Assembly: GCF_023115355.1 (NCBI RefSeq)
Contig: NZ_CP096019.1
Coordinates: 248,001-312,000, forward strand
Length of the DNA stretch: 64,000 nt
Direction: 5' to 3'
Source: Halocatena salina
Lineage (GTDB): Archaea > Halobacteriota > Halobacteria > Halobacteriales > Haloarculaceae
In this document: positions 2,177-7,790 of the stretch, piece by piece
Layout: each line of letters starts with the position of its first letter
Position numbering within the stretch: position 1 is the first letter of the stretch
Program-made: the position numbers and the translations under genes
The notes under the pieces: generated by a model
What the model was told of the DNA's origin: nothing
What the model saw: only the letters and a program-made list of their open reading frames with translations
Databases searched by the model: none

Positions 2177-3196
2177 TTACAATTCTTTAACACCATCAAC
2201 GGCGTCATCGAGCGATGGTGCATCGAACAGATCCTGTTCGATATAGGCGTTAGCGCCTGCCGTGTACAGATCGGACACCGCATCGATCACTGCTCGATCG
2301 AGCGGTTGGGGGTCCACGTCACAGAGCGTCCGCCAATCGGCGATATCCTGCTCCCGGGCGTTCTGTTTGGCCTGCTTGACGCTTTCCACCCACTCGGATT
2401 GGGTCCGTTTGTGATACTGTCGGAGCAGTTCTTTCGATACTTGTTGGTCGTCGTATGAGAAGCGATTCTCATCGAAGGTGCCGACGACGTCTGCCACGCG
2501 GATGTCGCCATCGGAGTAGAGACATTCGATCTTTCCATCCTCGTGGTGTAATCCCACGTCGTCAGCCCGTTGTGTGATGAGTTCGTTGACCGACTGGGCG
2601 AGTGATTCGAGATCGTCGATATCGGCTCGACCTGCGATCGTATCCGCTTGCTCACGAGAGAGTAGCCGATCGGACTCCTCGTATTTGCTCGTGAATTCGA
2701 TGACTGGCTCCGGTAAATCGACGGATTCATCGGGCCATTCGTCCGTATCGAGACCCACATCTTCGGGATCAGCTCGGGAACGGAGACTCGATCCTACAGG
2801 GACCTGATTTCGGAAAACGATTTCGAGCGGAATGAGGTAGTTGTCCCCTGCCGCCGAATGGAACGCCTCATAGTCGTATTCTCGTCCTTCGTGGGGGAGT
2901 TCGGGAATCCGAGTGAGGTCGATCACCATCTCCTGGGGAGGAAGCGTCACAGCATCGAGGCTCGCCGTATCGCCTTTATCTATGACCCCCTGATAATGGG
3001 TGTCGATGCCGTTCTCTTCGAGGAGTTCGAAGTTAGCAGCACCCATCGCACACAGACTAGCTCCCTTTTGTGGGATCGGATCTGGCATCTTCCCCCAGTC
3101 GAACACCGAGTAATCGTTGGTAAAGAGAAATCGGCCCCGACCAAGTCGATCCGGTGTTGGCGCCTTCTCGACGTGAATCTCTTTGACGCTCGTCAT
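2177..3196 (-). CDS. purC: Phosphoribosylaminoimidazole-succinocarboxamide synthase (SAICAR synthetase)
   Basis: It catalyses the ATP-dependent joining of aspartate to CAIR in de novo purine synthesis, in the cytoplasm. The 339-residue product shows the family landmarks: GRGRFLFTNDYSVFDWGKMP at the ATP/CAIR site near residues 18-37, the IPLEIVFRN strand, and the acidic D-Q-x-V-S-K-E-L-L segment near the C-terminus. It is longer than bacterial PurC, as is usual for the haloarchaeal form. The start was placed at the ATG at 3196, because the 44 codons before it look non-coding. It is divergent from the Hsp70 gene at 3438, with 241 bases between them for both promoters. Confidence 0.92.
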   Translation of the reverse strand: MTSVKEIHVEKAPTPDRLGRGRFLFTNDYSVFDWGKMPDPIPQKGASLCAMGAANFELLEENGIDTHYQGVIDKGDTASLDAVTLPPQEMVIDLTRIPELPHEGREYDYEAFHSAAGDNYLIPLEIVFRNQVPVGSSLRSRADPEDVGLDTDEWPDESVDLPEPVIEFTSKYEESDRLLSREQADTIAGRADIDDLESLAQSVNELITQRADDVGLHHEDGKIECLYSDGDIRVADVVGTFDENRFSYDDQQVSKELLRQYHKRTQSEWVESVKQAKQNAREQDIADWRTLCDVDPQPLDRAVIDAVSDLYTAGANAYIEQDLFDAPSLDDAVDGVKEL

Positions 3197-3437
3197 ACTG
3201 CATCCTTCCTCGGGTCGCACTAATCGATTTCTATCGACGGAGGATTTTCTCCGTTCTGTTGGTCTTCTCGCGGCGTATAGGCCTTTCCCATCCCACATCG
3301 GGATGGATAGACACCGGTTGATATTCAAACCAGTTCGTTCAGTGACTAGATAGCAGTTGATTTATCATAGAAGAAGATCAATTGGGTAATGTAACGCTCG
3401 ACCAGGGTACGGTTCGAACGGACAGTCGGGGGCAACG

Positions 3438-5075
3438 ATGAGGACACCGAACGTTGGCATCGACATCGGAACGACGACCAGCGTGCTAGCAACAGTAGGT
3501 GATGGAACGACGGTTCCCACGGGAGAGTGGGTGTGTATCCCCACCGTCATTTCGTTTGAAGGAGAGCATGCGATCGTCGGGGAATCAGCGCGTGACCGAG
3601 CAGTCAGAACTCCGATCCGCACTGTGAGGTCGTTTACCTCCCTTCTCGGGACCGGTGAGCGCGTTTCGATCGTCGTCGATGGACAAACCCGTGAGTACAC
3701 GCCGGAAGAACTGACAGCATTGGTACTCACGAAACTACAGCGAACGGCCCACGCTACGATCGAAGAACTGTCCTCGTTCGATCGCGTCGTCGTCACGGTG
3801 CCAACGACGTTCACCGCTCGTCAGCGTCGAGCACTGTGTCAGGCCTGTGAGATCGCTGGGATCGACGTCGCTCGTCTCATGACTGGACCGACAGCAGCGG
3901 CGCTTACCCACGGGATACAGACCGAAACTGAAGGAACGATTCTCGTGTACGATTTGGGTGGTGGAGGGTTCGACGCGGCACTCATCGACATCACAGAGGG
4001 GGTGTTTGACGTCCTCGGAACACGCGGGGATCAATGGCTTGGAGGTGCTGCATTCGACGCAACGATCGTGGAATGGCTGGATCTCCATCTCGAACGGAAA
4101 TACGATATTCATCTCGAAGACGATCCAGTCGCTACGGAACGGCTGTTTATGGCGGCCCGAACGGCGAAACGCGAATTGGGAACTCACACCTCAACGACCA
4201 TCACTGCTACCATCGAACACGAAGGACGACGCTACGAGATCAGACAGCCGCTCCACCGAAACCAACTGGAGCGACGCACGCGTGATCTCGTATCACGGAC
4301 GATCAGCGTCTGTGAGGAACTTCTCGATGCGACCGGGCGACGAGAACGACATCTAGATGGCTTGCTGTTCGTCGGCGGAGTGACTGATTTACCGTTCGTC
4401 CGGGAGCGCATCACCGATCGATTCGAACGCGTGGAAAACTGGCAAGACGCCTCCGAAGCGATCGCGTTGGGTGGAGCGATGCGGGCGGCGATCGTTGACA
4501 CCACAGGATCACCGACAAGCACTGCATCCATGGGGTTCTCACCCACCGAGACTGTCGTCCTCGACGCGGCGCCACACTCGCTCCGTCTCAAGCCGAGATC
4601 CGGAATCACTGACCGACTCGTCTCCACCAACACCACGCTTCCACAGCGGGCGACAGCGGTGTTCACGACGACGACTGATCGGCAACAGTATCTGGTCGTT
4701 CCGGTGTACTACGATCATGTTATAAAGACATCACGTGAGAAGCGAAACCACCAAACTGAGCCGAGTCAGAGTACTGATCGAACGACGACCGATCGAAGCA
4801 TGGATGACACTGCCACGACTACGAGCGAGCGAGCCGACGACCGGCAGGCGACCCATCGTCTGCTCGATGCGTTCCGTATCGGACCGTTACGCCCCCGTCA
4901 CGCTGGTGACCCATCTATCGAGGTGACGTTCGAGTTCGATCCCGACGGAATCGTTCACGCACACGCCATAGATCTCGACGCCGAACGGGACGGGACGCTC
5001 GAAACCAGAGCCGTCTATCGCCACACGGAAACGAAGATCGGGACGATGAAACAGGAACTACCGACTGTTCGATGA
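3438..5075 (+). CDS. Divergent Hsp70 (DnaK-like) with altered catalytic residues
   Basis: A 545-residue Hsp70 family member. The actin-fold nucleotide domain is clear: GIDIGTTTSV near residue 8, VPTTFTARQRRALCQACEIA near 121, PTAAAL at 151, YDLGGGGFD at 171 and FVGGVTDLPFVR near 320. It then has a partial beta-type substrate domain, interrupted by a polar linker rich in Thr, Ser and Asp, and no alpha-helical lid, so it is shorter than DnaK (about 620-640). Compared with E. coli DnaK, Asp8, Asp194 and Asp201 are kept (D9, D172, D179), but Lys70, Glu171 and Thr199 correspond to Thr67, Gly150 and Gly177. ATP hydrolysis is therefore probably weak or lost, which is inference. It is followed after 54 bases by a membrane J-domain protein, its probable partner. 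It is not the housekeeping dnaK, which has grpE and dnaJ beside it in relatives. Confidence 0.85.
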   Translation: MRTPNVGIDIGTTTSVLATVGDGTTVPTGEWVCIPTVISFEGEHAIVGESARDRAVRTPIRTVRSFTSLLGTGERVSIVVDGQTREYTPEELTALVLTKLQRTAHATIEELSSFDRVVVTVPTTFTARQRRALCQACEIAGIDVARLMTGPTAAALTHGIQTETEGTILVYDLGGGGFDAALIDITEGVFDVLGTRGDQWLGGAAFDATIVEWLDLHLERKYDIHLEDDPVATERLFMAARTAKRELGTHTSTTITATIEHEGRRYEIRQPLHRNQLERRTRDLVSRTISVCEELLDATGRRERHLDGLLFVGGVTDLPFVRERITDRFERVENWQDASEAIALGGAMRAAIVDTTGSPTSTASMGFSPTETVVLDAAPHSLRLKPRSGITDRLVSTNTTLPQRATAVFTTTTDRQQYLVVPVYYDHVIKTSREKRNHQTEPSQSTDRTTTDRSMDDTATTTSERADDRQATHRLLDAFRIGPLRPRHAGDPSIEVTFEFDPDGIVHAHAIDLDAERDGTLETRAVYRHTETKIGTMKQELPTVR

Positions 5076-5129
5076 CCGGCTTCGAAGCGTCGAACGGATC
5101 GCCGAGACAGCAACGGTTCGAGTCGTAGC

Positions 5130-6641
5130 ATGTCTGAGTCGTACTACGAACTCCTCGGTGTGGAACCGGACGCCTCGCGTGAGGAGATCGAGACCGCCTA
5201 TCGAGAGACGGTCAAACAGATCCATCCCGACAAAAGTGATCGCTCTGACGCCGAAGAGACGTTCATGCAGGTCCAAGAGGCACGCGCAGTATTGACTGAT
5301 CCTCAACAGCGGGCGAAGTACGATCGTCGTCGAACGACATCCGAGTCGGAGACCGACGCCGATACTAACGATACGTCCGGGGAAACGGGGTCCCACCGTC
5401 GAGCACACGACGGATCGTCACCCGACGAGCAAGCTGACCGACAGCAGCGGACGAACGCCGAAGAACGAGAGCGGTACCGGAGACGGAGCAGTTGGACGGA
5501 CCGATCAGATCCACACCGTTCTCGGCGGACACGACACACATCCCAGAGCCGGACATCTAGTGCCTCTCGATCGCGACGATCTGTGTGGGACGAGCGACGG
5601 ACAATGATCGTAACGACGGTTTGGAAGTGGGGAGCGATGTTGTCGTGGATCGTACGGACCGTGGTGACGATGGTTCGGTGTCCGCGCCGGCTGGCCATCG
5701 ACCGAGCACGCCTCAAAGAGGCGACAACGACACCGACAGGCATCCGGATCGGCGCGACGATCGCGTTCGTGCTTGCGGCGACCATCGTTGCTAGCTACGT
5801 CGGTCTCGACATTCAGACGTCGCCAGCGATCGGATTAGCGATCGTCGTCGTGGGACTGATCGGAAGCTACACCGGGTACGATCTCCTGTTCCCGACGCCG
5901 TATTACGAACCACCGACACAGCAACGGTACGACCCGGACGGCGTACAGCGACTCTGGCCCATCGTAGCGACGAATCTCCTCGGGATCGGTCTCATCACCA
6001 TTGCACTGGTCGGCGGTGCACCCACCGGCGGCATCCTGTTCACGGGAACAGTGCTGGTGCCCATCGTCGTTTCGTTCGTGCTTTCGGACGTCGTCCGTCC
6101 CACGACGTCGTCCGATTACTCGGCCAGTATCGAATATTTGCTCAGTGTCCTTACACGATCGGTGAGTCTATTGCCTCCAGTCGTGATCGGGTTTGTCGTC
6201 TTCACCCACTGGGGACTCGACACCCCCACACTACTGGAGCAGTCGGGGGTGATGACCGCAACGCCGTGGTTCGGACGGCTCACGCTCGGCGGAGTGTACG
6301 TGGGAATCGTGCTCAACCTCCTCGTCGGTGTGCTGGTCTGTATCTGTCTGCTCTGGAGCGTGTACGCCATGTGTCTTCACCTCACTGCCGCACCGTGGGC
6401 CGACCGGTACAGCTACGGTTACCAGATTCGTCCCGGTCCGTGGAACCTGTTGGTTGCCGGACCGTTCGTCGTCATCGGATGGATGATCATCGCAGGCGTG
6501 TCCACGATCGAGATTCCAGCAGGAATCTCGACGATCACGATCACCCAACAAGGACTGCTAATGGCCGTGTTTCTCCTCCCGTCAGTGTTGACCGGGCTGT
6601 ACATCCTCCGGCGACGACTCGAACCGATGTTTCACGTGTGA
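5130..6641 (+). CDS. J-domain protein with multi-pass membrane region
   Basis: A 503-residue protein. Residues 1-67 are a J domain: SYYELLGVEPDASREEIETA, then the HPD tripeptide at 32-34, helix III with ARAVLTDPQQRAKYD, so the Hsp70-stimulating loop is intact. Residues about 68-150 form a charged, Arg/Ser/Asp-rich linker. From about 155 onward there are roughly eight hydrophobic segments, including a Gly/Ile/Val-rich pair near 210-255 and several more to residue 500, ending in RRRLEPMFHV. The Gly/Phe and zinc-finger parts of DnaJ are missing. The J domain should face the cytoplasm and recruit the Hsp70-like protein encoded just upstream to the membrane. I recognise the N-terminal domain only; the membrane part matches nothing I can name. 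Confidence 0.85.
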   Translation: MSESYYELLGVEPDASREEIETAYRETVKQIHPDKSDRSDAEETFMQVQEARAVLTDPQQRAKYDRRRTTSESETDADTNDTSGETGSHRRAHDGSSPDEQADRQQRTNAEERERYRRRSSWTDRSDPHRSRRTRHTSQSRTSSASRSRRSVWDERRTMIVTTVWKWGAMLSWIVRTVVTMVRCPRRLAIDRARLKEATTTPTGIRIGATIAFVLAATIVASYVGLDIQTSPAIGLAIVVVGLIGSYTGYDLLFPTPYYEPPTQQRYDPDGVQRLWPIVATNLLGIGLITIALVGGAPTGGILFTGTVLVPIVVSFVLSDVVRPTTSSDYSASIEYLLSVLTRSVSLLPPVVIGFVVFTHWGLDTPTLLEQSGVMTATPWFGRLTLGGVYVGIVLNLLVGVLVCICLLWSVYAMCLHLTAAPWADRYSYGYQIRPGPWNLLVAGPFVVIGWMIIAGVSTIEIPAGISTITITQQGLLMAVFLLPSVLTGLYILRRRLEPMFHV

Positions 6642-6647
6642 ACGGGA

Positions 6648-7790
6648 TCAATAGCAGTCTAACACCGAGCGAAACCGCCGTCCTGCTTCGGTTTCGGTCT
6701 CGATAGCGCGTTCGATCCGTGGAGAGAGCCACTCCCCTTCGACGTATCGATCGTAGACCGGCAGGCGTTCGGTGAGCGGAACACCGGCTGTGTCAGCGAT
6801 ATCTCGGAGTTCATCTAGCCCGGGCCACGCGTAATCGGGATTGATGTAGTCGTCGGTGATGGGCGAGACCCCGCCGAGATCGTCGATCCCACAATCCACC
6901 AGTTCACGAACGGGCGACAGGTTGGGTGGCACTTGGACGCTCACCGACTCCGGCAGGGCAACCCGAGCCATTGCAACGGCGCGGCGCATCGTCGTTACGG
7001 AAACAGGATCCTCTTGCCACCGTTCGTTGGGAACGACGTTCTGGACCAGTACCTCCTGGATGTGGCCGTATCGTTCGTGTAGCTCGGCGATCGCCAGCAA
7101 ACTCTCCGCACGATCACGCCACGTTTCTCCGATTCCGACGAGAATGCCGGTGGTAAAGGGAACGTCGAGTTCGCCGGCAACACGGATCGTATTCAATCGC
7201 TGCTCGGCCGATTTTGCTCGAGGACCGCCGTGAGCTCGAACGTCGGCCGTCGTCTCCAGCATCACCCCCATGCTTGCGTTCACGTCGGCTACCTGCTCCA
7301 TCTGCGCGCGTGTCTGGTCTCCGGGATTCGAGTGGGGAAGAAGACCCTCATCGAGCGCGATTTCACACGCTTCTCGGAGATACGAATGGATCGACTCATG
7401 GCCCCAGTCGGCGAGTTGCTCGTGGATTTGGGTGTATCGATCGTCCGGGTCGTCGCCGAAAGTGAACAAGGCTTCCGTACAGCCTGCGTCAGCGCCAATC
7501 CGCACGGTGTCCCGTATCTCCTCGGGACTCATGAGCGACGCCTGTCCTGGCGGATCGTAGTACGTACAGTATGTACACGTGTACCGACACGCTGTCGTAA
7601 GCGGTACGAACACGTTGCGGGCAAAACTCAACTCCGATGGCGCTTCGACGTCGTCGGGGGTAACGTCTACCAACCGGTCGATCTCTGATGATGCTATCGA
7701 CAGCGACTCCGAGACGGATATCGAATCCTCCTTGCCGTTCGTATCGGCGTCGATTCTGCTAGCATCGTCGTCCGTCCTCGGTGGTGTCAC
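6648..7790 (-). CDS. cofG: FO synthase subunit 1 (7,8-didemethyl-8-hydroxy-5-deazariboflavin synthase, CofG)
   Basis: A radical SAM enzyme that, with CofH, joins tyrosine and a pyrimidine to make FO, the chromophore of coenzyme F420. The cluster-binding motif is CRYTCTYC (Cys68, Cys72, Cys75), preceded by RNVFVPLTTA, and the GILVGIGET strand-loop lies near residue 215, as in CofG. The 380-residue length is normal, with a variable N-terminal extension of about 50 polar residues. The start is GTG at 7790; a TTTTTTAT box 22-28 bases upstream on this strand fits a leaderless promoter. cofC lies upstream on the same strand, so two F420 genes are grouped. cofH is not in the window. Confidence 0.93.
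   Translation of the reverse strand: MTPPRTDDDASRIDADTNGKEDSISVSESLSIASSEIDRLVDVTPDDVEAPSELSFARNVFVPLTTACRYTCTYCTYYDPPGQASLMSPEEIRDTVRIGADAGCTEALFTFGDDPDDRYTQIHEQLADWGHESIHSYLREACEIALDEGLLPHSNPGDQTRAQMEQVADVNASMGVMLETTADVRAHGGPRAKSAEQRLNTIRVAGELDVPFTTGILVGIGETWRDRAESLLAIAELHERYGHIQEVLVQNVVPNERWQEDPVSVTTMRRAVAMARVALPESVSVQVPPNLSPVRELVDCGIDDLGGVSPITDDYINPDYAWPGLDELRDIADTAGVPLTERLPVYDRYVEGEWLSPRIERAIETETEAGRRFRSVLDCY

Follow-up and report, generated by a model that had tools for sequence, protein, structure and literature searches.

The Hsp70 analysed here, which lacks a helical lid and is encoded beside a polytopic membrane J protein in Halocatena salina, has lost residues of hydrolysis, sensing and allostery that are intact in its paralogues, and we tentatively favour, at somewhat less than an even chance and by analogy with Ssz1–Zuo1, that it is a pseudo-ATPase partner of a membrane J protein that drives another Hsp70. 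The pair lies in a 4.0 Mb genome, in a stretch of 64,000 nt (NZ_CP096019.1, positions 248,001–312,000; assembly GCF_023115355.1) that is called here the window, and all coordinates below are positions within it. The genus (Halocatena/Actinarchaeum) also includes Halocatena pleomorpha, H. marina, Actinarchaeum halophilum YIM 93972, YIM A00010, and YIM A00013, and has hyphae- and spore-forming species among its members. The ORFs are exactly those of a preliminary description of the locus, with a 545-aa lidless Hsp70 (3438–5075, plus strand; Pfam HSP70, PF00012, E = 2e-93; best PDB relatives DnaK) followed after 54 bases, on the same strand, by a 503-aa protein with a J domain and membrane segments (5130–6641, plus strand). 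As an observation that description was confirmed, and its interpretation was partly supported; in addition to what it contained, the present analysis revealed more changes in pocket and allosteric residues, a loop insertion in the beta-sandwich, and paralogous pairs.

The pair is flanked by purC (2177–3328, minus strand; NCBIfam NF010566) on the left and by cofG (6648–7790, minus strand; NCBIfam) on the right, two neighbours whose conserved synteny defines what is referred to here as the type I locus. A read-through fusion of the Hsp70 and the J protein, which share a frame in the window, was rejected, as the corresponding gaps in relatives measure 61, 65, 68, or 11 bases and the frame is not kept. 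Chance adjacency was rejected too, since the further pairs read in the genus (gaps of 11–68 bases) and five pairs outside it are all adjacent. The two genes are neighbours at the type I locus of four other genomes and in every paralogous pair examined, so that the adjacency first seen in the window held in the relatives.

Both features of the Hsp70 superfamily, an actin-type nucleotide-binding domain (NBD) and a beta-sandwich substrate-binding domain (SBD), are present in the window Hsp70. The NBD spans about residues 1–352 (3438–4493, plus strand), according to the alignment to DnaK and the predicted model, and the linker with the beta-sandwich SBD occupies positions 4551–5072 (plus strand), as delimited by the second aligned stretch of a phmmer comparison with Geobacillus DnaK (2v7y; query residues 471–536) and by the C-termini in the alignment. 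The helical lid (SBD-alpha) is missing, the protein terminating just beyond the beta-sandwich, a little past the start of helix A. A Ser/Thr/Asp-rich loop of about 43–45 residues (4719–4847, plus strand), which appears as a gap between the aligned stretches and is predicted to be disordered (pLDDT 24–30), is inserted in the beta-sandwich. Comparison of C-termini located an LPTVR tail at the end of the protein (5058–5072, plus strand), and a proline a few residues from the C-terminus was present in 19/19 lidless Hsp70s compared, usually within an LPxVR-like tail; this proline-containing tail may be a docking or pseudo-substrate motif. The window pair carries the hallmark of the family of lidless pairs, namely an Hsp70 of about 520–545 aa with a short proline tail and an adjoining membrane J protein. 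The predicted structure of the Hsp70 matched BiP (6eoc) with a Z of 38.5 and 3.7 Å over 477 residues and was nearest to Hsp70s in the ATP-like docked state, such as 6eoc and 4b9q. Ssz1 was not among the best 50 structural matches listed for this model, which is uninformative either way.

Residues were mapped through alignments to Geobacillus DnaK (phmmer) and to E. coli DnaK (two MAFFT alignments), and these concur with the preliminary description in that DnaK residues K70, E171, and T199 are replaced by T67 (3636–3638, plus strand), G150 (3885–3887, plus strand), and G177 (3966–3968, plus strand), while the three aspartates D8, D194, and D201 are retained as D9, D172, and D179. An alignment error at the three replaced positions was rejected, because the phmmer alignment, both MAFFT alignments, and the intact paralogues are concordant. 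T11 and T12 (DnaK numbering, as from here on) are also kept, and further changes were found at N13, R71, Y145, D148, S274, and R345, the latter belonging to the GGxTR motif.

The five type I Hsp70s (5/5) are altered in at least one of K70, E171, and T199, with differing residues: these positions read T/G/G in the window and in H. pleomorpha, K/E/G in YIM A00010, and N/D/T in YIM A00013 and A. halophilum. All five also have Y145 replaced by Thr or Ala, D148 by Ala, S274 by a non-polar residue, and R345 by Asp, Glu, or Gln, and the H. pleomorpha protein shows a one-residue deletion in the GGGT phosphate loop. The residues R167, T173, and D393, which contact the J domain and the linker, are kept in the type I proteins. 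In DnaK, K70 and T11 sense the gamma-phosphate and S274 contacts the adenine, the D148A change stalls the signals sent by clients, T199A strongly reduces hydrolysis while allostery is not blocked, and E171D retains ATP-stimulated peptide release and stimulation by DnaJ (PMC12406271; for T199, also PMC13012618). Binding of ATP and switching by the type I Hsp70 appear doubtful because of the loss of K70, S274, and R345, the replacement of D148 by Ala, and the phosphate-loop deletion of H. pleomorpha. For these same reasons, the earlier proposal that the protein binds ATP without turning it over was not upheld, and the variation of the altered residues between orthologues does not agree with one fixed ATP-locked design.

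Among the invariant positions, shared by the DnaK of E. coli and 12 lidless proteins with intact residues, those of the pocket and switch were kept in the type I Hsp70s at a rate (10/22) similar to that of other NBD positions (37/72; p = 0.81), so the nucleotide pocket is without its usual protection. About half of the invariant residues of both NBD and SBD are retained in all five proteins.

The partner protein starts directly with a J domain (5139–5324, plus strand; Pfam DnaJ, PF00226, residues 4–65, E = 1e-21), the sole Pfam domain found in it, with an intact HPD at residues 32–34. A charged Ser/Arg-rich linker, predicted from sequence and model to be mostly disordered (5325–5732, plus strand), leads to a polytopic membrane domain with a conserved PW.DRY..GY..RP..WN motif (5733–6638, plus strand), delimited by hydropathy and related to haloarchaeal membrane proteins without a J domain. 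Sequence and hydropathy agree with the HPD and the number of about eight membrane segments given beforehand. All J proteins of the alignment (A3) carry the HPD, and across the genus the J domain is preserved intact. The AlphaFold model of the J protein was of moderate confidence (pLDDT 63), and a Foldseek search of it against the PDB listed matches of the J-domain type only, with no solved structure among them for the membrane domain. The Hsp70 and the J protein were also folded as one fused chain (TGA read as W), purely as a modelling device, and the pTM of 0.47 is one from which the interface between the two is not readable. A search of plasmids with the J protein returned just short J-domain matches.

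Several other proteins of this kind were observed. Haloarchaeal membrane proteins of about 250–300 aa, with six hydrophobic segments, no J domain, and no Pfam family found (L101:4687-5592, L102:3765-4511, L103:4277-5071), share a C-terminal ADRY..GY...P..W motif with the membrane domain of the J proteins. A further membrane J protein of like kind, without an Hsp70 neighbour (L095:6979-8268, L096:5977-7272, L097:6007-7263), lies in a region with queuosine-type genes and an M50 protease that carries CBS domains. In genome G096, SPD replaces HPD in the J protein encoded beside a catalytically intact lidless Hsp70 (L053:1413-2291), which is the converse of the window case in that the J partner is the altered one.

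Genomes of the genus contain from one to three lidless-Hsp70/membrane-J pairs, and the neighbourhoods of the window pair and of 13 further pairs fall into four classes. Type I, flanked by purC and cofG, was found besides the window in H. pleomorpha, YIM A00010, YIM A00013, and A. halophilum; type II, mostly near pyrBI and an FAD oxidoreductase gene, in all genus members examined (the window genome, H. pleomorpha, H. marina, YIM A00010, YIM A00013, and A. halophilum); type III in A. halophilum and YIM A00013; and type IV in YIM A00010. The A. halophilum orthologues are on chromosome 1, at 124269-125846, 155772-157337, and 711559-713151. Assembly G040 repeats the H. marina locus. In the genus the Hsp70 gene always precedes the J gene, and every lidless Hsp70 whose neighbourhood was read adjoins a J-domain membrane protein. 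Outside the genus the pairs are sporadic, with two in Saliphagus, one in G096, and, in a different family, one each in G301 and G391; in G301 the membrane J gene comes before the lidless Hsp70 gene (L121:4765-7579), and in G391 the Hsp70 is first. The membrane domain was present in 9/146 genomes of the family, seven of them from this genus, and in 15/391 genomes of the class, where the matches outside the genus were mostly weak (including 9 of the 10 outside the family) and several corresponded to membrane proteins without a J domain. The full J protein was found in 0/294 other genomes sampled across the phylum; no genus mate was listed in this sample.

Type II and type I pairs share architecture, adjoining genes, and about 40% identity, and the catalytic and allosteric residues of type II are intact. 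K70, E171, and T199 are likewise intact in types III and IV, in the Saliphagus pairs, and in G096, with intact motifs in G301 and G391 too. Since paralogous pairs, one of them in the window genome itself, keep all three catalytic residues, the pair does not seem from its sequences to be inherently an inactive system; the term "catalytically altered" of the preliminary description fits the type I Hsp70s but not most pairs. In the Hsp70 tree, canonical haloarchaeal DnaK forms a clade separate from the lidless proteins. Two other unusual Hsp70s were observed, a 635-aa divergent one of the window genome (C2, L039:3775-5682) with a C-terminal GrpE domain and unusual phosphate-loop (DLGAATFD) and E171 (DDACL) regions, and a 1042-aa single-frame protein in G120 (L056:4010-7138) that includes an Hsp70 region (residues 7–509), a GrpE-like stretch (613–755), and a protein kinase domain (780–1025).

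Matching pair groups (I, II, III + IV, and Saliphagus) emerge from the Hsp70 tree and from the J-protein tree, and for this reason both partners were most likely duplicated together. The dN/dS values, which are rough as they come from a counting method at dS of about 0.4–0.7, ranged from 0.13 to 0.24 for type I Hsp70s versus 0.06–0.09 for intact paralogues. Between the window species and H. pleomorpha they were 0.199 (type I) and 0.056 (type II) for the Hsp70s, and 0.137 (type I) and 0.102 (type II) for the J proteins; between A. halophilum and YIM A00013 the Hsp70s gave 0.129, 0.060, and 0.085 for types I, II, and III. Its reading frame is open in five species separated by large dS, and on these estimates the type I Hsp70 is under relaxed but real purifying selection.

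At the purC-cofG locus of H. marina there is a J protein that has the HPD and branches as sister to the type I J proteins as a whole, and no Hsp70; no Hsp70 remnant was found at this locus, and only the type II lidless Hsp70 and DnaK were found in the genome. At the place of the type I Hsp70, upstream of the J gene, cofH is present (L098:3305-4675), with cofG also adjoining. The simplest reading of this arrangement is that the type I Hsp70 was lost in H. marina, where the type I J protein must consequently use another Hsp70 or none.

According to the co-chaperone reading that we favour, the type I Hsp70 would no longer run an ATPase cycle and would serve the membrane J protein as a pseudo-chaperone subunit, with a weak, fast-exchanging binding site in its beta-sandwich, stabilising or positioning the J protein, whose J domain would stimulate a catalytically intact Hsp70, either the type II lidless one or DnaK, on clients at the membrane. 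The whole would work as Ssz1–Zuo1 does on Ssb, yet in an archaeon and on its membrane. A type I pair that is self-contained and driven by ATP is disfavoured because its Hsp70 has lost residues of hydrolysis, sensing, and allostery and because the J protein can outlive it. The losses in type I, set against the intact residues of the paralogues, argue for a co-chaperone, as do the conserved J-contact residues with the invariant HPD, the presence in the window genome of two Hsp70s whose residues are intact by sequence (type II and DnaK), the matching pair groups, the type I J protein that stands with its HPD but without a type I Hsp70 in H. marina, the precedent of Ssz1, and the contrast in dN/dS between the type I Hsp70 (about 0.20) and type II, the J proteins differing much less. 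On the other side, pocket residues were lost at about the rate of other NBD residues, which fits plain relaxation too, the J protein is missing the ribosome-binding domain and the N-terminal LP motif of Zuo1, and H. marina suggests that the Hsp70 is dispensable there.

The main rival is a relaxed, partly redundant copy, a type I Hsp70 that lost its cycle after duplication and drifts towards loss, only the J protein mattering, together with the type II Hsp70 or DnaK. Such a fate would agree with altered residues that vary between orthologues, a dN/dS that exceeds the type II value two- to fourfold, the unprotected pocket, the J protein retained alone in H. marina, and the phosphate-loop deletion of H. 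pleomorpha; we consider it unlikely, though a serious contender, as purifying selection has still kept the frames open in five species, with half of the invariant positions in the NBD and SBD, as well as the J-contact residues, retained. An ATP-locked switch or scaffold, with bound, unhydrolysed ATP and a docked open state on membrane clients, would be in line with the retention of D8, T11, T12, D194, and D201 in the window genome, with the resemblance of the model to 6eoc and 4b9q, and with the behaviour of DnaK T199A. It is distinctly unlikely, because the ATP contacts are lost too, with the K70 sensor, S274, and R345 gone, D148 turned to Ala, and the phosphate loop deleted or altered in relatives; moreover, the state preferred by AlphaFold is no evidence of nucleotide binding. 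Least probable of all is a still-working ATPase chaperone of lower rate that uses alternative residues: the YIM A00010 protein has K70 and E171, and that of A. halophilum has T199 with an E171D change, after which DnaK retains peptide release and stimulation by DnaJ, but the window Hsp70 is without all three residues and, in addition, without Y145, D148, and S274. A more detailed form of the co-chaperone reading would make the pair a membrane-bound archaeal counterpart of the eukaryotic ribosome-associated complex (RAC, Ssz1–Zuo1). The catalytically dead Hsp70 without a lid would be stably bound to its polytopic J protein, the two together would drive another lidless Hsp70 that acts on clients of the membrane or envelope, duplications in the haloarchaeal lineage that forms hyphae and spores would have multiplied the system, and the proline tail would be a pseudo-substrate or docking motif. 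In its entirety this seems rather unlikely.

The family is concentrated in a genus with hyphae-forming haloarchaea, and little is known of the machinery behind their morphogenesis. YIM 93972, A00010, A00013, and H. pleomorpha differentiate into hyphae, and 61 clade-specific gene gains were reported for the clade, in a study whose main text contains no mention of Hsp70, DnaK, or DnaJ (PMC10067837); a link between the pair and morphogenesis is an association by lineage only. If the co-chaperone reading is true, archaea independently evolved co-chaperones made of a pseudo-Hsp70 and a J protein, located at the membrane and not on the ribosome. Orthologues in which three, two, or one catalytic residues are changed, or the Hsp70 is gone, beside intact paralogues, constitute a natural series suited to testing what a lidless Hsp70 does without ATP turnover.

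Among the systems available for comparison, canonical haloarchaeal DnaK/DnaJ/GrpE resembles the pair in its NBD, beta-sandwich, and J domain, and differs in that DnaK has a lid and an acidic tail and DnaJ is soluble; the type II pair differs from type I in its intact residues, low dN/dS, and location near pyrBI. The statement that no system of this form had been described stood for haloarchaea, as no such pair was found in the literature searched, but not beyond them, since eukaryotic Ssz1–Zuo1 and bacterial HscC-DjlB/DjlC resemble it. Ssz1 is a lidless Hsp70 that binds ATP without hydrolysis and is bound to the J protein Zuo1, which activates Ssb (PMC7083937). The likeness consists of a lidless Hsp70, which here, to judge by its residues, would be without hydrolysis, a J partner with an intact HPD, and a second, active Hsp70 in the cell (here type II or DnaK, intact by sequence). 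Whereas the Ssz1–Zuo1 heterodimer is stable, pairing is suggested here by gene adjacency and matching tree groups; besides, the window J protein spans the membrane several times, has no Pfam domain but the J domain, and lacks the ribosome-binding domains of Zuotin, the LP motif is N-terminal in the J protein there and closes the Hsp70 here, nucleotide binding is doubtful here, and the system is archaeal. E. coli HscC, a specialised Hsp70, functions with the membrane J proteins DjlB and DjlC and is thought to act on membrane proteins (PMC8215388). Its J partners are membrane-anchored, as is the window J protein with its approximately eight hydrophobic segments, but HscC has a (shortened) lid and most ATP residues, in contrast to the lidless and altered window Hsp70. 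DjlB and DjlC are single-span membrane J proteins. In conclusion, Ssz1–Zuo1 is, by analogy, the closest known mechanism, and for an Hsp70 that works with membrane J proteins the nearest example is HscC with DjlB/DjlC.
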